DNA from: Lachnospiraceae bacterium
Lineage (GTDB): Bacteria > Bacillota > Clostridia > Lachnospirales > Lachnospiraceae
Length of the DNA stretch: 52,448 bases
NCBI GenBank assembly: GCA_017623675.1
Contig: JAGAOO010000052.1
Span: forward strand, 1-52,448
Reading direction: 5' to 3'
In this document: piece after piece, positions 20,737 to 40,171 of the stretch
Position numbering within the stretch: position 1 is the first letter of the stretch
Layout of the letters: every line of letters starts with the position of its first letter
The notes under the pieces: model-generated
Databases searched by the model: none
Seen by the model: only the letters and a program-made list of their open reading frames with translations
Told to the model about the DNA's origin: nothing
Translations under genes and position numbers: made by a program

Positions 20737-20763
20737 GATTAAAAAGTGAAAGTGGGTGACAAT

Positions 20764-21831
20764 ATGCATCGATTAATCAGCAGTGGATACTTGGTTGAAG
20801 GTGTAGAGGGACAAAATATTACATATACATTAATGGCACAAAATTTGTTTTTTGATATAGGTTATAAAGTTTTACAATCTCAAGCAAAGTACGGATATAT
20901 TAATTGTAATATTACGACTCATAATGGAAAACAAAAACTAATTTATAATGTATCGGGTTTAAAATCATTTGATGTCTTGATGAAAAATATGTCGCCAAAG
21001 TTGTTTTTGAACATATTTTGTAACTTGCTGGATGTGGTAATTAATGTGAAAAATAACGGATTTATGCAATGTGAAAACATTTCATTAGATTTCAGACGCA
21101 TATTTGTTGATACAAACAACATGAAGGTGTGGTTGATTTATGTTCCTTTGAATATACAAAGCGATCCAAATAGTTATGTATATTTTGAGACACAATTAAA
21201 GAAAAGAATTGTGGATGCGATTGATAATACTCCGATACTGAATCAAGATGTCCACATGAAACGAATTCGAAATTCCATGGCAGAGGGAATATTATCAATT
21301 GAACAGGTAAGAACGATTGCAATTGAGTGCATGGGGAATGTGGAAGCAGGAGGGTATTCTGTGAAATTGTCAGAACCATTGATAAGTGGTATGGAGATGC
21401 TGGAGAAATCTATGGTAACTCCTGTTGTGCCAGACAAGAAAGCAGTGGCAATATCGCAGGTGCAGAAACAGCAGATTGTGACAACACAGAGTTCCTCGAT
21501 ATCACAGGAGAATCGAACAACAACCCGAAAAATTTGTCTTAAAAGAACAAATGCACAAGAGCCACTTATTTTCACTATTGAAAAAGATGAGTATTTAATA
21601 GGAAAACAAAAAGAAGCGGTAGATGGTTATGTTCCAAATAATACAGCTATTAGCCGAATACATTGTAAAGTGATTTATCGTACTGGCGAATTTTATATTG
21701 TAGACATGGGAAGTACGAATGGAACATATCTAAATCGGAATAGATTGCAACCAAACTGCCCAACCGGATTACATTTGAATGATAGAATAATGGTTGCGGA
21801 TTGTGAATTCATTGTGGCAAGCATATCGTAA
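20764..21831 (+). CDS. T7SS FHA protein, possible EssB-like N-domain
   Basis: The 355-residue protein has no membrane segment. Residues 255-352 are an FHA phosphothreonine-binding domain with LIGK, SRIH (297-300) and GSTNG (316-320). Residues 1-200 are a DUF6382-like region; KLIYNV, a SFDVLMK helix, NGFMQCENISLDFRRIFVD and VWLIYVP fall in the order seen in the soluble pseudokinase half of EssB/YukC. I therefore infer, without proof, that this is the EssB counterpart, with an FHA domain in place of the membrane helix and outer part. GGGTGA before the ATG at 20764 decides the start over a GTG at 20746. It opens the T7SS cluster. Confidence 0.75.
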   Translation: MHRLISSGYLVEGVEGQNITYTLMAQNLFFDIGYKVLQSQAKYGYINCNITTHNGKQKLIYNVSGLKSFDVLMKNMSPKLFLNIFCNLLDVVINVKNNGFMQCENISLDFRRIFVDTNNMKVWLIYVPLNIQSDPNSYVYFETQLKKRIVDAIDNTPILNQDVHMKRIRNSMAEGILSIEQVRTIAIECMGNVEAGGYSVKLSEPLISGMEMLEKSMVTPVVPDKKAVAISQVQKQQIVTTQSSSISQENRTTTRKICLKRTNAQEPLIFTIEKDEYLIGKQKEAVDGYVPNNTAISRIHCKVIYRTGEFYIVDMGSTNGTYLNRNRLQPNCPTGLHLNDRIMVADCEFIVASIS

Positions 21832-21846
21832 AGCGAGGGGATGCAG

Positions 21847-22899
21847 ATGGCAAAGATAAATGTTTTGATTGTTGATGCGGATGAACGTTATGTTGGTCCG
21901 CTGGAACGGAAATTTACAGCAGAATTAAATGGGAAAGCAAATATTGGAATTATTACGGATATAAATTATTTGGAAGTGTTGTTTTCGACACCACAAACCT
22001 TAGATATCTTGTTAATTAATGAGCAATTATATAATGTCAGTATTGAGAAACATAATATTGGCAGTGTATTCATTTTGACAGAAGAAGTAAACGAGCAGGA
22101 ACGTGTGAATGGTCATAAATTGATTTATAAGTATACGAGTGTTCGGGAAATATATAATATGGTATATAACAATCTTCCTACCGAATTGATATCGAGTATT
22201 AATTCCAGAGAGAAGACAAAGGTGATTACTGTATATTCTCCAATTGGAGGGAGTGGTAAAACAACAATAGCAATGATGTTGGCTGCAAATTTTGCTACAA
22301 AATCAAAGCGTGTGTTGTTGGTTGGGACGGACAATTTGCAAACATTTGCGTTTGAATTGAATGATGCGACAAGACTGAAGCAGGGAATAGAGAAGGAATT
22401 AATGAACGATAAGGTTGCCATATATGATTTGGTTGAACCGTCTATTATTCGAGATGTAATGGATGTGTTTCCTCCGCTTTCCAGAGCTAAGGTTGCATTG
22501 AACATTGCCAGTGATTTCTATTCGGAAATTGTTAAGAGTATCAAGGCTAGAAATATTTATGATTATATTGTTGTAGATACAGCAACTGATTTTTCGGATG
22601 AAACAATAAAGTTATTTGGAGTTTCAGATCAAACATTGATATTAGTGCAACAGGATAGACGGTCTGCATACAAGGTAGAGCGGTTCTTATACAATGTTGA
22701 TTGTTCAGATTCCAGAAAGTATACAATAGTATGTAATCAATATAAAAATGAAGAAGAAAATACTTTGGTTTCTGGGGAGTTTGATATTAAGTGCAGAGTA
22801 TCAGAATACATAAATTATAATCCAAGAATACATATGCTTGGATTTAGAGAAAACTGTCAGAATAAGGATTTTAATAAGATTTCTGACTTGTTCATTTAG
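21847..22899 (+). CDS. CpaE/MinD-like ATPase of the T7SS locus
   Basis: The 350-residue protein has a receiver-like N-terminal domain (about 1-110) in which the phospho-acceptor Asp is replaced by Asn (DILLINEQL), and a P-loop ATPase of the MinD/ParA/CpaE class from residue 125 with the deviant Walker A SPIGGSGKTT (131-140) and a DYIVVDTATDF Walker B. CpaE-type proteins place secretion machines such as Tad pili at the cell pole. Canonical Bacillus or Staphylococcus T7SS loci lack such a gene. Its place between the FHA gene and the YukD-like gene suggests a role in placing or assembling this T7SS. GAGGGG six bases before the ATG at 21847 sets the start. Confidence 0.8.
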   Translation: MAKINVLIVDADERYVGPLERKFTAELNGKANIGIITDINYLEVLFSTPQTLDILLINEQLYNVSIEKHNIGSVFILTEEVNEQERVNGHKLIYKYTSVREIYNMVYNNLPTELISSINSREKTKVITVYSPIGGSGKTTIAMMLAANFATKSKRVLLVGTDNLQTFAFELNDATRLKQGIEKELMNDKVAIYDLVEPSIIRDVMDVFPPLSRAKVALNIASDFYSEIVKSIKARNIYDYIVVDTATDFSDETIKLFGVSDQTLILVQQDRRSAYKVERFLYNVDCSDSRKYTIVCNQYKNEEENTLVSGEFDIKCRVSEYINYNPRIHMLGFRENCQNKDFNKISDLFI

Positions 22900-22907
22900 G
22901 AGGGAAT

Positions 22908-23165
22908 ATGGATAAGACGAATAGAGCGATAGTATATCTCTATATACATGGCAAAAATGAAAAATTCGAACTGGATATCCCATTGAATATTACGGCTTAT
23001 GAATTACTTATTGGGTTGAATGAAGCATATCATTTGAACATGAATATGACGGATGTTTCAACGTGCTTTCTGAAAACTGAAAATCCGATTGCTTTGATTC
23101 GAGGGAATCGACTGTTGTCGGAATATGGGTTACGGAATGGAACAATAATTAACATTGTAGAATAA
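22908..23165 (+). CDS. YukD/EsaB-like ubiquitin-fold protein
   Basis: The 85-residue protein has the beta-grasp pattern of YukD/EsaB: an initial AIVYLYIHGKNEKFELDIP hairpin, a helix ITAYELLIGLNEAY, and the last strand pair LLSEYGLRNGTIINIV, where LxxxGLxxGxxI is typical. EsaB is a small cytoplasmic protein needed for T7 secretion in Firmicutes. It lies between the ATPase and essC with short gaps, as yukD does in Bacillus. Confidence 0.85.
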   Translation: MDKTNRAIVYLYIHGKNEKFELDIPLNITAYELLIGLNEAYHLNMNMTDVSTCFLKTENPIALIRGNRLLSEYGLRNGTIINIVE

Positions 23166-23180
23166 TGGGGTGAGGTACTT

Positions 23181-26100
23181 ATGGGTCAAAGGTATAAGGT
23201 GATTCTTTCAAATAAGGCATTTTATCGGGAGGTGTCGTTGCCAATTGATGAACCGTTTGTTTGTGTGGGAACAACAAGGAATTGTAGCGTTCGTTTGGGG
23301 AAAGGTTTGTTTTTCGATGATATTGAGTTAAGATTTGACAACAGAAATGGACAGTGGTCGGTTGCATGCTCTGATAATTTGTACATATTATCAGATGGAA
23401 TAATTAAACTTTCGGTGAAGGAATTAACATACGGCGATGGAATTAAAGTTAAGTATGTTGATTCTAGTCAAGATGCGTTAAAAATAGATTTTTTAATGGA
23501 TTTTGATTATGAAATGAAAGACTATAATTGCATGATTGATGTAACGGGAGTGGATCAGATTCGCATAGGTGGAAGTGCAAGTTGTGAAATCTATTTGGAA
23601 GATGAATTAGTTGGCAAGGAAATCGTTCGCCTGTTTTATCAGCAAGGACAGTACTATATTAGCGATAATGACTCGAAATATGGTGTATATGTAAATGGAA
23701 TTAAAATTCAAGGAACGGTTCCAATTAAGAATTATGACTTCTTTTCTATTGCAGGTTTTAGTTTCTATTACAAACAAAGGAAGCTATATACAGCAAAATC
23801 TTCAAAAATTAAAATTCAGGGGTTGCAATTCATGGAAGCGGAACCGCCAAAGAGTAAAATGCAATATCCAAAGTTCAATCGTAATACGCGAATACAATAT
23901 GAAATACCGGAAGAAGAAATTGAAGTATTGGCACCGGAAGCAGAGCAGAAAATGCAAAAGAAGAGTATTTTGCTTAGTCTGATTCCTTCATTAGTGATGC
24001 TTGGAATGACAATTGTTCTTCGTGGAGTTTTGGGAAATGGTGGTACCTTTGTAATATATAGTGCATGTACGATGACGATGGGTATTATTATGTCTATTAT
24101 TACATATGTGGGTGACCGCAAACAATTTAAGAAGGATTCGATTCAACGAAAGAAATTGTATAATGAGTACATAGAGAGAAAAGAGAAGGAAATTCAAGAA
24201 AGCAGAGAAAATGAATTAGCGATTCGCAGGAAGATAAGTACATCTCCGGAAGAGAACATCAATGAGGTTCTCGGTTTTGGAAAGCGTATTTTTGAAAAGG
24301 AAATAAAGGATAAGGACTTTTTGGAAGTCTACCTTGGAACAGGTCAGGTTGAGGCGAAATGTAAAGTGGAGTATGCGCATAAAGAAACAATTTCCGTTGA
24401 TGACCCGTTGATGCTAGTTCCGGAAGAGATAGAAGAAAAGTATCACTATATTCAGGATGCACCAATTATTGTGCCGTTTAAGGAGGCATCCGGTGTAGGA
24501 GTGGTAGGCACTCGAACCAAATTGCTTGAGTATCTAAAAAATATTAGCTTGGATATAGCGTCTCGGCATTTTTACAAAGATGTAAAAATGGTTTACTTTA
24601 TGGAATATGAAGATGTAATTAACAACAGTTGGATTTGTTCTTTGCCACATGTGACAAATGAAAAACTCAATGTACGTAATGTTATTTGTGACGAAGAAAG
24701 TCAAAATGTCTTGCTGGAATACTATTATTCAGTTTTGGCGACTAGGGAGTCTGAGTCAAATGAAGAAACCCCGACCGCTTGGAGCGAGCACTATGTGTTC
24801 TTTGTAATGGATGCTAGAAAGCTTGCAGTTCATCCGATTTCAAAGTATTTTTCTAAAGCGGACAAATATGGATTTACTTTTGTCTTTTTAGAAGAATACG
24901 AAGAGTTTATTCCTCAAGGTTGTACAGAAATGATTTACTTGGAGAATAAGGAAGATGGAGCAACGTTAAAGACAGAAAATGGAGAGATAATTACTGATTT
25001 CAAATATCCTGATATTTCAAATGGAGTAATGGAATCTGTTTCCACAAAGTTAAGTGCGGTCTACGTTGATGAGGTTAATCTGGCAAGTGAGTTAACAAAG
25101 AGTATTACAATGTTTGAGCTGCTTGGTATTGTGGATGTGACTGATTTAGATTTGAAAGAACGTTGGGAAAAATCGGAGGTATATAAAACTATGGCTGCCC
25201 CTCTTGGAGTAAAGAAAAAGGGAGAAGTCGTATACCTCAATCTGAGTGATAAGGCAAATGGACATGGGCCTCATGGTTTGGTTGCAGGTACAACCGGTTC
25301 TGGTAAAAGTGAAATACTTCAGTCGTACATTTTGTCTATGGCCACATTGTTTCATCCATATGATGTGAGTTTTGTTATCATCGACTTCAAAGGTGGAGGT
25401 ATGGCAAATCAATTCCTGAACCTTCCACACTTAAATGGTGCAGTTACCAATATAGATGGACGTGAGATAAATCGTTTCTTGTTGTCGGTAAAATCTGAAT
25501 TGATACGTAGACAGGAACTGTTTTCGCAAAGTGGAGTAAATCATATTAATGATTACATAAAATTGTACAAAAAAGGCTTGGTTGGTGTTCCAATGCCTCA
25601 TTTGATAATTGTGGTTGATGAATTTGCGGAATTGAAAGCAGAATATCCGGAGTTCATGAAAGAAATTATTAGTGCCGCACGTATTGGTCGTACATTGGGT
25701 ATCCACTTGATTTTGGCCACTCAGAAGCCATCGGGTGTTGTTGATAATCAGGTGTGGAGTAATTCAAAGTTCCGCTTATGCTTGAAAGTACAAAATAAAG
25801 AAGATAGTAATGAAGTAATCAAGAGTCCGCTTGCTGCAGAAATTGTGGAGCCGGGACGTGCATACTTGCAAGTTGGTAATAATGAAATTTTTGATTTATT
25901 CCAGTCTGCATTTAGTGGTGCGCCTGTACCGGATTTGTCTGCAACCGAAGTTAGAGAATATGTGTTATACTCAATGAATCCATGGGGAAAACGTACGGTT
26001 GTATATGAAAATAAGGCTAAAAAGACAAAAGAAAATGTTAAGAATCAGTTGGAGACTATTATTGATTATATTGCAGAGTACGTAAAGTCAGAAAACTATG

Positions 26101-27749
26101 TGCCGTTGCCTGGAATTTGTCTTCCGTCGTTGCCGGATACATTGACATTGGATGAAATTACGGTGAAAGAACATAAGGATGCAATGATTTGGGCGAAGAT
26201 TGGCCGATTTGATGATCCGGGCATGCAGATGCAGGAAGCTTATGAAGTGAACTTGTCAGAAAGTAACACCTACATTATTGGATCTGCTCAGACAGGAAAA
26301 ACATCGTTGTTACAAACTGTTATTTGCGATGTTATTCAGCATTACACACCGGACGACGTAAATATGTATATTTTCGATGGTGGAAACATGGCATTGAATT
26401 GCTTTGAAGCCTCTAATCATGTTGGTGGTTATACGGAACCGCAGAACGCAGAACGTGTTGTGAATCTGTTTAAGATGTTATTCTCTATTATTCAAGAAAG
26501 AAAAATGGAGTTTGCGTCGAAAGGTTTGGGAACGTTTTCTGCTTATAAGGAAGCTGGTTTTGCCATGCCACAGGTCCTGGTGATTATGGATAATGTTTCG
26601 GCATTCAAAGAAAATTTCTCGAATTTGGAAGAGCAATTCCTGAAACTTACAAGAGAAGGCTTGAGTGTTGGTATCAATTTCATTGTAACCGGAACGCAGA
26701 CCAATTCTATTGGGCATAAGAACCTTGCAAACTTTGGAACGAAAATAGCGTTAAACTGTAATGATAAGGGTGAGTATTCTAACTTATTTGGTCGCTGTAA
26801 GCTAGATATCAAGGAAGTGCCTGGACGAGGAATTGTAGTGCGTGAGAAGAGAACGCTGGAATGCCAGATGGCATTATGTGTTAAGGCCGAAAGAGAAATT
26901 GAGCGAAATAAGAAATTGTTGGAGATTATATCTGAATGTAATGCAAGAAATGAAGAAATGAATGCAAGACAGATACCGGAAGTTCCGGATATTGTTCTTC
27001 AGAGTGAACTGTATCGTAAAAATAGGGACTTATATAAGAAACCGTATGTATTGCCGATTGGTATTAATTATTCAACCGTTGAGTATGAGTTCCTCTCTCT
27101 GCGAGAGGCGGGATGTTTTGCAGTGCTGGGTAAGGCAAAGATGGGAAAAACTAATTTCGCAAAACAATTGTTATGGGGCATGGAAAAAACAGCAGATATT
27201 GCGCCGACAGAAGTATATGCATTTGATGGCATGGAAAGAGGCCTTTCGTTTGTGAAGAATTCAAGTCTTGTCAAGAATTACACAATGGATATATCCGAAA
27301 TGGAAGTGATACTCGAAGAATTGCATGAGACATTGAATCACAGACTTGAACTGCTGTATGAGGCCGAGAATGCAGAAGAGTATCTGTCGAAAGTTCCTTT
27401 GATTTGTATTATGATGGAAAACAAAGATTTGATGGCAAAGATTGTATCAAATAAGGACAAGGAATTGACGGCGCGTTTTCTTGATTTTCTTAAGAAGTTT
27501 AAACAGGTTAAGGCGTTTGTTCTCTTTTCAAATATGGATAATGTTGCAACGGGATTTAGTCCGGGTGATGTTATAAAGGCAATAAAAGAAAATAGAAAAG
27601 CAATTTTTCTTGATGACATTTCTGAAATCAAGTTCTTGGATGTGAATAACAAAGCGTTGAAGGAATTCAATAAGCCAGTGGCACCTGGCGATGGATTCTT
27701 ATATATGGGTAATACATTTGGAAAAGTTAAGACAATTTTTAATGATTAG
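23181..27749 (+). CDS. essC: EssC/YukBA T7SS ATPase
   Basis: EssC is the membrane ATPase that drives type VII secretion. The 1522-residue protein has two N-terminal FHA-like domains (about 1-95 and 100-205), two membrane segments (about 261-310), and three FtsK/SpoIIIE-type P-loop domains. Domain 1 is complete: GTTGSGKSE near residue 703, IIDFKGGG, and VVDEFAEL near 811. Domain 2 has GSAQTGKTS near 1034 with MDN where DE is usual, and domain 3 has GKAKMGKTN near 1316 with MMEN, so only the first looks fully catalytic, as in known EssC proteins. The length matches Staphylococcus EssC. The C-terminal domain, which selects substrates in Staphylococcus, is followed by an unknown gene and the substrate block. 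Confidence 0.95.
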   Translation: MGQRYKVILSNKAFYREVSLPIDEPFVCVGTTRNCSVRLGKGLFFDDIELRFDNRNGQWSVACSDNLYILSDGIIKLSVKELTYGDGIKVKYVDSSQDALKIDFLMDFDYEMKDYNCMIDVTGVDQIRIGGSASCEIYLEDELVGKEIVRLFYQQGQYYISDNDSKYGVYVNGIKIQGTVPIKNYDFFSIAGFSFYYKQRKLYTAKSSKIKIQGLQFMEAEPPKSKMQYPKFNRNTRIQYEIPEEEIEVLAPEAEQKMQKKSILLSLIPSLVMLGMTIVLRGVLGNGGTFVIYSACTMTMGIIMSIITYVGDRKQFKKDSIQRKKLYNEYIERKEKEIQESRENELAIRRKISTSPEENINEVLGFGKRIFEKEIKDKDFLEVYLGTGQVEAKCKVEYAHKETISVDDPLMLVPEEIEEKYHYIQDAPIIVPFKEASGVGVVGTRTKLLEYLKNISLDIASRHFYKDVKMVYFMEYEDVINNSWICSLPHVTNEKLNVRNVICDEESQNVLLEYYYSVLATRESESNEETPTAWSEHYVFFVMDARKLAVHPISKYFSKADKYGFTFVFLEEYEEFIPQGCTEMIYLENKEDGATLKTENGEIITDFKYPDISNGVMESVSTKLSAVYVDEVNLASELTKSITMFELLGIVDVTDLDLKERWEKSEVYKTMAAPLGVKKKGEVVYLNLSDKANGHGPHGLVAGTTGSGKSEILQSYILSMATLFHPYDVSFVIIDFKGGGMANQFLNLPHLNGAVTNIDGREINRFLLSVKSELIRRQELFSQSGVNHINDYIKLYKKGLVGVPMPHLIIVVDEFAELKAEYPEFMKEIISAARIGRTLGIHLILATQKPSGVVDNQVWSNSKFRLCLKVQNKEDSNEVIKSPLAAEIVEPGRAYLQVGNNEIFDLFQSAFSGAPVPDLSATEVREYVLYSMNPWGKRTVVYENKAKKTKENVKNQLETIIDYIAEYVKSENYVPLPGICLPSLPDTLTLDEITVKEHKDAMIWAKIGRFDDPGMQMQEAYEVNLSESNTYIIGSAQTGKTSLLQTVICDVIQHYTPDDVNMYIFDGGNMALNCFEASNHVGGYTEPQNAERVVNLFKMLFSIIQERKMEFASKGLGTFSAYKEAGFAMPQVLVIMDNVSAFKENFSNLEEQFLKLTREGLSVGINFIVTGTQTNSIGHKNLANFGTKIALNCNDKGEYSNLFGRCKLDIKEVPGRGIVVREKRTLECQMALCVKAEREIERNKKLLEIISECNARNEEMNARQIPEVPDIVLQSELYRKNRDLYKKPYVLPIGINYSTVEYEFLSLREAGCFAVLGKAKMGKTNFAKQLLWGMEKTADIAPTEVYAFDGMERGLSFVKNSSLVKNYTMDISEMEVILEELHETLNHRLELLYEAENAEEYLSKVPLICIMMENKDLMAKIVSNKDKELTARFLDFLKKFKQVKAFVLFSNMDNVATGFSPGDVIKAIKENRKAIFLDDISEIKFLDVNNKALKEFNKPVAPGDGFLYMGNTFGKVKTIFND

Positions 27750-38219: not shown

Positions 38220-38262
38220 TTTTAGTTGATATATCAATAATAAATGGATTGAATGAAATTAC

Positions 38263-38318
38263 CCCCTACCACTGACATTGATGTGATAATGAATGTTGGT
38301 GGTAGGGGATTTTTATTT
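38263..38318 (+). terminator. Intrinsic terminator of ileS
   Basis: CCCCTACCAC (38263-38272) pairs with GTGGTAGGGG (38299-38308), and the stem extends inward through GACATT and AATGTT, before a T-rich tract. The first palindromic site of the HipA operon starts in the tract. Confidence 0.9.
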
Positions 38319-38375
38319 GACGTGCGACAAATAATATGCTATAAAAAGTATAGAGATATTTGACGTGCGACAAAT
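38315..38375 (+). promoter_or_regulatory. Twin palindromic operators and promoter
   Basis: ATTTGACGTGCGACAAAT occurs identically at 38315-38332 and 38358-38375, 43 bp apart (about four helical turns). Each is a near-perfect palindrome, ATTTGnCGnnCGnCAAAT. The first copy contains TTGACG (38317-38322), which with TATAAA (38340-38345) forms a promoter with 17-base spacing. A half-site ATTTGTCAA lies at 38397-38405. A repressor dimer on these sites would block the -35. Confidence 0.8.
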
Positions 38376-38432
38376 GATTTGGTTTGAATAAGATTTATTT
38401 GTCAATAATAGAAATGGGGGGTGACAGAAGCT

Positions 38433-39239
38433 ATGAATATTATTCATGAAAAACAAGATTTAACGTATTTGAATTGGTCACATATTCGAACCTCCAGTGG
38501 AACAGCCGGAACATTTTTGAAATCCGAATCCAACCTGGATGGTAGGAAAAGATACTATAAATTGTCTAATTTTGATTCCTCGAGAGGCGTGATTGGGCAT
38601 GAATGTGTAAATGAAATCATTGTTGACCGATTACTCACATTGTTAGGAGTGGAGCATTTATCATACGAACTGGTTCATGCGGATATCGAAATAGAGAATA
38701 AACGATACAGCACATATTTATGTTCATCAGAGGATTTTAAGAAACGAGGCGAAAGCAAAATAGCATTGGATGATTTTTACACAGCGAATGCTAAGAAGGG
38801 AGAATCTCATTATGAATTTTGTGCGCGTATGAATTGGCAGAGATATATAGATACCATGCTTGCGGTGGATTATATTATATTGAATAGAGATCGGCATGGA
38901 GCGAATATTGAAGTGTTAAGGAATGCAAGAGCACATACACTTCGAATAGCACCTCTGTTTGATCATGGACTATCATTATTATATTCTTGTACCACCGAGG
39001 AAGAGGTTATGAAATTTGACATTTTTGAGGATAAGAAGTGCCAAAACTTCATTGGAAGCCATTCCTGTTATGATAACCTGAAGCTAATTCGCAATAAAAG
39101 TGGGATATTTAAAAACAAATTAAAGAAATCAGATAAAGACTTTTTACTGGAAGGGTTAGAAAATGTTTTGCCAGAGGTATTCATAGAGAAAATCTGGGCG
39201 ATGATATATGAAAGGTATGAGATATATGAAAATATATGA
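38433..39239 (+). CDS. HipA-core protein kinase (possible toxin)
   Basis: The 268-residue protein has the HipA kinase core without the usual N-terminal subdomain: a Ser/Gly loop SSGTAGTFLK (21-30), a likely ATP Lys in YYKLS (43), a conserved Glu (57), the catalytic loop NRDRHGAN (151-158) and the metal Asp in PLFDHGLS (174-181). HipA kinases phosphorylate tRNA synthetases or translation factors and act as toxins when free. The kinase set is complete. GGGGGGTGAC before the ATG at 38433 sets the start. It overlaps the next gene by 14 bases and sits behind paired palindromes, which suggests an autoregulated two-gene module. It is not a full HipAB: no hipB-like small gene precedes it. Confidence 0.85.
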   Translation: MNIIHEKQDLTYLNWSHIRTSSGTAGTFLKSESNLDGRKRYYKLSNFDSSRGVIGHECVNEIIVDRLLTLLGVEHLSYELVHADIEIENKRYSTYLCSSEDFKKRGESKIALDDFYTANAKKGESHYEFCARMNWQRYIDTMLAVDYIILNRDRHGANIEVLRNARAHTLRIAPLFDHGLSLLYSCTTEEEVMKFDIFEDKKCQNFIGSHSCYDNLKLIRNKSGIFKNKLKKSDKDFLLEGLENVLPEVFIEKIWAMIYERYEIYENI

Positions 39240-40023
39240 GATATTGGATGAAGAGAATAAAATAAATATAGGTGTTCTTCTGTATTTCGAAAAGAAAAAA
39301 GAATTTATCATTGAGCTTCAAAGCAATATTGATGAGTGGATGGCACCATTGTTGTTTACGAATCTCGTGAAAAATCAGATATATACAGTTCCAAGAAAAA
39401 TGGCTTATATGTGGGTAAAAGAAAGAATCATTCCAAGTGGAAGACAAAATATAAGTGAAATCTTAAAAAATCACAAAATGGAAGTCTATGATGAGATGAA
39501 ATTCTTGGAATTATCTAAGGGAAAATGTTCGCAGGATAGTATGTATATTAGGAAAATCGATGAGTTGCCGGAATATGTGATAGAAAGAAGAAAAAGAAAT
39601 GTGGTGGATCTGGTTGTATGTGATGGATGGAAAATTCTATGCTTCTTTGAAAATGATATTGTGAAACGTGTTGACATGACAGAACTTTCGTATGTGGATG
39701 GAATTTCGAAAATAATTAACAATAAAAAGTTATATCAGTCATGTAAAGTAGGGACAGGCGGATACTCGATTACGTTCGATGACGCAATTGATATATCATC
39801 GTCTATTCTTTATGAACATGGAGATATCCTTCCAATTTCCAGAAACGATTTTATCTGTTTTGCAAGAAATAATCTGTTGGATACATCAGAGTGCTGTGAA
39901 TTATTAGAGTGTTCAAGGCAAAATGTTTCATATATGATAAGGCACGAACAATTAAATCCTATCAAGGAAGACATAAAGGGGAATTTGTACCTAAAAGGTG
40001 AGATTGTTAAGAATATGTGGTAG
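39226..40023 (+). CDS. DUF2442-HTH partner of HipA-like kinase
   Basis: The 265-residue protein has an N-terminal half I do not recognise (1-125), a DUF2442-like segment (about 128-200: VCDGWKILCFFEN, VKRVDMTEL, DISSSILYEHG) and a C-terminal helix-turn-helix (about 214-262: LLDTSECCELLECSRQNVSYMI, then YLKGEIV, like excisionase/MerR HTH). The quoted HTH stretch is split by a turn. The likely role is to bind the paired palindromes upstream and to restrain or report on the kinase. The ATG at 39226 is favoured by AAAGGT nine bases before; two earlier ATGs at 39208 and 39217 are possible. The operon is AT-rich compared with ileS and glgP, hinting at acquisition. Confidence 0.7.
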   Translation: MKIYEILDEENKINIGVLLYFEKKKEFIIELQSNIDEWMAPLLFTNLVKNQIYTVPRKMAYMWVKERIIPSGRQNISEILKNHKMEVYDEMKFLELSKGKCSQDSMYIRKIDELPEYVIERRKRNVVDLVVCDGWKILCFFENDIVKRVDMTELSYVDGISKIINNKKLYQSCKVGTGGYSITFDDAIDISSSILYEHGDILPISRNDFICFARNNLLDTSECCELLECSRQNVSYMIRHEQLNPIKEDIKGNLYLKGEIVKNMW

Positions 40024-40087
40024 TCACTTCAAAATATGTCAGTTTTACCATTCTTTGGGGAAAATGTAATTATTTTTGAGATATTGG

Positions 40088-40116
40088 TTGAGTTATCAGA
40101 TTGTTTCTGATAAAAT
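40088..40116 (+). promoter_or_regulatory. glgP promoter with spacer operator
   Basis: TTGAGT (40088-40093), 17 bases, TAAAAT (40111-40116). Nearly all the spacer is a perfect inverted repeat, TTATCAGA (40093-40100) and TCTGATAA (40106-40113) around TTGTT, which looks like a repressor site between -35 and -10. Confidence 0.7.
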
Positions 40117-40171
40117 ATATGTGATTTTGGGTTTTATAATTCAGGAAAATGCTAAGGAGGCAATAAGGGGA

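Follow-up and report, generated by a model that had tools for sequence, protein, structure and literature searches.

A predicted HipA-kinase toxin-antitoxin module of Lachnospiraceae with a HipS-like, DUF2442 and winged-helix partner

What kind of system is encoded by the two genes that separate ileS from glgP in contig JAGAOO010000052.1 (assembly GCA_017623675.1) of a Lachnospiraceae bacterium? The stretch analysed, hereafter the window, comprises 52,448 nucleotides (nt), and the original prediction had placed in it a kinase and helix-turn-helix (HTH) module with its own twin operators, possibly an undescribed type of kinase toxin-antitoxin or a defence module. A two-gene module of kinase and partner does lie between ileS and glgP, at 38315..40023, and the observation holds, operators included. 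We consider it probable that the two genes make up a toxin-antitoxin resembling type II, built on a kinase of the HipA superfamily, with a bifunctional partner that serves as both lid and repressor. This reading builds on sequence homology, folds predicted for the domains, the pairing of the genes, conserved operators that co-occur with the HTH, and purifying selection; toxicity, inhibition, DNA binding, coupling and the target are its predicted parts.

The two genes occur together. One scan of genome contigs returned 379 kinase relatives, making this compact module common enough for work, and among the best 80 of these and one locus from a viral contig, the partner lay directly 3′ of the kinase in 80 of 81 loci, the exception (L052; L, G and C numbers are our handles for loci, genomes and contigs) stopping at a contig edge without a visible partner. 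The pair is thus conserved across genomes, and its order, kinase first and partner downstream, differs from hipBA and hipBST as originally proposed. Partner matches, many of them partial, were present in 44 of the 299 family genomes sampled first, and the kinase adjoined the partner in 28 of 30 partner loci taken from that sample (window included). Kinase matches of at least 184 bits occurred in 33 of 397 family genomes, the next match scoring 58 bits, and all 33 had an adjacent partner when compared by contig and coordinate with the partner matches in a sample drawn in the same way. Phylum-wide, two of 284 genomes matched at E ≤ 1e-30, namely the module's own genome and one of its family. The best 80 loci are mostly named Lachnospiraceae, Butyrivibrio, Eubacterium or similar, with a few 'bacterium', 'Firmicutes' or 'Clostridiales', and the module is found in gut and rumen Lachnospiraceae. 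Both genes are under purifying selection.

Partners without an intact kinase comprised a full partner with an operator-like site next to a kinase remnant (G843, L213), an orphan HipS-like gene (G272:C15, L030/L212), a partner carrying a stop (G153) and a shortened partner (G081), a count that leaves out short or weak partner matches (for example, G177, G214, G901, G248 and G154). No kinase without a partner was seen in the genome samples examined. Partner alone, never kinase alone, is the direction expected for a toxin-antitoxin; the four cases, two in decay, are too few to prove much. By eye, the orphan HipS-like gene lies next to genes for an adenylation enzyme and a methyltransferase.

Two identical 18-mers, each the imperfect palindrome ATTTGACGTGCGACAAAT, lie on either side of the -10 hexamer TATAAA (38340..38345, plus strand). 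Operator O1 (38315..38332) includes the -35 TTGACG (38317-38322), which a 17-nt spacer separates from the -10, and O2 (38358..38375) follows at a start-to-start distance of 43 bp. The exact core occurs only twice in the module's own genome, both times at this module; a generic promoter scan of the window did not include the kinase promoter among its listed promoters. Conservation of the palindromes, which the original prediction had proposed as a check, was assessed at 102 distinct loci by requiring 11 of 14 core positions to match within the 300 bp 5′ of the kinase: 95 upstream regions contained a core site and 77 contained two or more, compared with a mean of 1.2 of 102 (maximum 5) for shuffled regions. 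Operator spacing in the 77 distinct two-site loci had a median of 43 bp (range 39-52), and a -10 (at least 5 of 6 matches, 16-18 nt spacer) followed the upstream site in 58 of them, versus 5.6% of control positions.

The operators track the DNA-binding domain. The core is present in 94 of 99 distinct HTH-bearing modules, and the remaining five (L018, L020, L022, L023 and L113) have a palindrome resembling CTTGAC-N4-(G)ACAAG, with at least 9 of 12 positions matching, a criterion chosen afterwards that, joined with the core criterion, is passed by 9.3 of 102 shuffled regions. Neither motif was found upstream of any of the five kinase relatives whose partner consists of a HipS domain only (L031, L032, L209, L210 and L211). 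Operators accompany only HTH-bearing partners (99/99 versus 0/5; Fisher p 1e-8, relatedness ignored), a distribution that is the best evidence for the C-terminal winged helix as the operator-binding part. Operator conservation and HTH co-occurrence fit an operon that is probably autoregulated by the partner at O1 and O2.

The kinase gene (38433..39239, plus strand) starts at ATG 38433, with GGGGGG ahead of it at 38416-38421, and encodes a HipA-core Ser/Thr kinase of 268 aa without N-subdomain-1, the predicted toxin. Its place in the HipA superfamily is indicated by a predicted HipA-like fold and, in the kinase alignment, by the Gly-rich loop S21-S-G-T-A-G26 (38493..38510; S21, G23 and G26 invariant in 73 aligned kinases), the catalytic D/N of motif N151-R-D-R-H-G-A-N158 (38883..38906) and the metal-binding D of F176-D-H-G179 (38958..38969), to which a role is assigned by analogy with HipA. 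The Pfam HipA_C match falls under the curated cut-off, loop residues 20-25 are the least confident stretch of the structure model, and a sequence search of solved structures matched CtkA (E 6e-6). The protein is not a full-length HipA, as model residues from 7-8 align to HipA from 120-122. In a phylogenetic tree, the 19 kinases of the module's family group as a single clade (100/99), whose long branch is separate from the HipI, HipJ, HipL and HipM rows used; we assigned these row labels from partner genes, and the sister group is left undecided because several long branches (HipI, HipJ, HipM and HipT rows) meet. Two HipS-only members branch at the base of this clade in the drawn tree, a placement that hints at, without proving, a later addition of DUF2442-HTH. 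The same genome carries two HipA homologues with the N-subdomain (G000:C58 and C51; L001 and L002) and a further HipA/CtkA-like kinase match at G000:C77:46032-46529, so the module kinase is one of at least four.

The partner gene (39226..40023, plus strand; 265 aa), encoding the predicted antitoxin and autorepressor, overlaps the kinase gene by 14 nt, as it does in 63 of 80 relatives (starts chosen by script), suggesting translational coupling of the two. Its start at 39226 is common to nearly all aligned relatives and replaces the upstream start at 39208 given originally. Residues 1-112 (39226..39561) form a HipS-like domain homologous to HipA N-subdomain-1, residues 120-203 (39583..39834) a DUF2442 domain and residues 205-265 (39838..40020) a winged HTH of excisionase/MerR type. 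The HipS-like lid was detected with a larger profile, and both domain homology and predicted fold support the assignment; BLASTP of the partner against HipN and two-sequence hhalign were negative. Among solved structures, NE0471 (2auw) was a weak match to the partner (E 0.022). According to passages of PMC10627512, the antitoxin of hipBST is the lid HipS, which blocks HipT via Trp65. The Trp of a HipS-like sequence (L128) aligns with Arg73 of the partner, part of an R73-Q74-N75 motif (39442-39450) invariant in 68 aligned partners; a Trp65 mechanism was therefore rejected for the partner, and its lid is predicted to inhibit through another contact.

A mechanism consistent with the toxin-antitoxin reading is that the HipS-like lid would dock on the kinase and keep it inactive, while the partner's winged helix would bind both palindromes bracketing the promoter and turn off transcription of the pair. 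DUF2442 would link lid and winged helix, and may serve dimer formation or sensing. Partner shortage would then open the promoter and leave free kinase to phosphorylate its target. A more elaborate version, which we hold to be fairly unlikely, is that the module represents a further Hip kinase type with HipS and HipB functions in one protein, in which a DUF2442 sensor, or a phage or host factor bound to it, sets kinase release and promoter opening together; such a single-protein switch would have arisen when an ancestral pair of kinase and HipS gained DUF2442-HTH. With inhibitor and repressor apparently in one protein, and HipS-only relatives as natural controls, the roles of lid, DUF2442 and HTH are directly testable.

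How new is this arrangement? Ten Hip organisations were defined by Gerdes and colleagues in 2021, as set out in portions of PMC8262856, and the closest to the module are hipIN, hipJS and hipMP. Like the module, hipIN has a short kinase core without N-subdomain-1 and a downstream partner gene with a HipS-like N-terminus; HipN, however, ends in HIRAN, whereas the module's partner has DUF2442 and a winged HTH, and the kinases separate (100/99). At E ≤ 0.1, 26 partners match 14 families, which include DUF2442 and HTH and not HIRAN, so the HipS-like domain followed by HIRAN that defines hipIN and the PADLOC system PDC-M03 is lacking here. From sequence matches, PDC-M03 and hipIN appear to be one kind of module: the PDC-M03 B profile matched L116 (Couple_hipA E 2e-7, HIRAN E 3e-11) and L117 (HIRAN E 1e-11, with a HipA-like kinase gene directly upstream). 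No paper of the open PMC literature names PDC-M03. The layout of hipJS, a short kinase followed by a HipS-type partner, is shared by the five HipS-only relatives, whereas the window's partner, at 265 aa and three domains, has two extra domains and the module has operators.

In hipMP, a short kinase precedes a partner thought to bind DNA (PMC8262856, in part), but that partner is resolvase-like, whereas the module's is of HTH_17/excisionase type with DUF2442, and no resolvase family is among the 14 families matched by the 26 partners. At one locus (L162, G190:C34), a kinase-like gene with a degenerate-looking NxDRH precedes a protein with a HipS-like N-domain and, by eye, a resolvase-like end, from which HipP antitoxins may carry a HipS lid too. 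The module shares with hipBST a kinase without N-subdomain-1 and a HipS-type domain encoded apart from it, as judged by domain homology and fold, with a predicted antitoxin role. In contrast to the three genes B-S-T, with the HTH on a separate, upstream HipB, the module places the kinase first, has no widely shared upstream gene and apparently fuses the HipS and HipB roles downstream. DUF2442 is also the partner domain of the Dickeya dhiTA pair (DUF4160/DUF2442; PMC8198452, in part); dhiTA and NE0471, the latter titled putative DNA-binding, resemble the module in having DUF2442 in a non-toxin partner and differ in lacking HipA kinase and HipS domain. We found no description of a HipS-DUF2442-HTH partner in the open PMC literature, other journals and preprints lying outside the search. 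Of the proposed undescribed type, the distinct partner layout therefore stands, and the lid, overlooked originally, places the module near hipIN, hipJS and hipMP rather than in a type apart; it looks like a new form of known HipA kinase toxin-antitoxin modules, with a partner layout undescribed in the searched literature.

The module might alternatively serve phage defence by abortive infection, with the DUF2442/HTH protein sensing infection, or being displaced by a phage protein, and the kinase thereby freed, a reading that we hold to be somewhat unlikely. The kinase matches the PADLOC candidate PDC-M03 in 27 of 27 members (best 4e-14) and the partner in 22 of 26 (best 2e-5), 12 of 26 partners also match mad1, which belongs to the MADS defence system (best 4.3e-7, probably via the HTH), and occurrence is patchy (33 of the 397 family genomes, with an empty site in three of seven congeners). 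PADLOC PDC labels are presumably predictions, and the PDC-M03 matches leave 'defence module' as a candidate label only. Persistence has been linked to HipA-type kinases, and a role in phage defence is suspected for some newer families (parts of PMC8262856); sections of PMC11706625 predict phage defence for HIRAN/HipA gene clusters. PDC-M03B, however, looks like HipS plus HIRAN, and the window partner's match to it spans only residues 67-118, inside the shared HipS part. In immediate neighbours (148 of 153 open reading frames (ORFs) scanned), the 25 commonest of 151 families include Uma2 (2) as the sole restriction-like family and no integrase or transposase; viral contigs gave one relative and the phage collection no partner match.

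A non-toxic signalling pair, with a metabolic or envelope target regulated by the kinase and the partner acting as regulatory lid and transcription factor, seems quite unlikely given a two-gene unit that is scattered and has no widely shared neighbour, a toxin-antitoxin-like layout of gene overlap and twin operators, and a kinase never seen without its partner. We find it distinctly improbable that kinase activity requires the HipS-like domain as an activator or scaffold, like N-subdomain-1 of active HipA, with control by repression only. The replacement of HipS Trp65 by Arg73 favours that view, as does the lid belonging to the toxin in HipA (PMC8262856, in part), but the stand-alone lid of hipBST is an antitoxin (PMC10627512, in part), and the five relatives that keep the lid without a DNA-binding domain or operator argue that the lid is the minimal partner.

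The genomic setting adds no third conserved component among 536 flanking ORFs of 80 loci, where the largest similarity cluster, ATPases of ATP-binding cassette (ABC) transporters, covers nine loci and no neighbour family more. Families among the 148 immediate neighbours include SfsA (6), HTH_3 (5), ABC (4) and Uma2 (2); SfsA, the commonest, may reflect chance or a preferred site. The position after ileS, originally thought notable in view of aminoacyl-tRNA synthetases as HipA targets, was rejected as meaningful: neighbours are not widely shared, the 25 commonest families include no tRNA synthetase, and in three of seven congeners (L175, L177 and L178, from L172-L178) glgP follows ileS by 105-139 bp without the module. 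In L174, glgP lies ~1.1 kb after ileS, and in the other three it was not within the stretch compared. The interval is short in the first three and holds other sequence in the rest. These differences mark the ileS-glgP interval (window 38220-40171) as a variable site of the genus at which the module was inserted or lost. Plasmid or phage carriage was also rejected, with one plasmid match (Pseudobutyrivibrio), no phage match and one viral contig. Between ileS and the module, a strong hairpin with U residues after it (38263-38308; -31.9 kcal/mol, z -8.5) is presumably a terminator. Elsewhere in the window, consecutive genes at 20746-27749 encode an FHA-domain protein, an AAA/ParA-like ATPase and a 1522-aa FHA and FtsK/SpoIIIE protein, a cluster that resembles type VII-b secretion (EssC-like).
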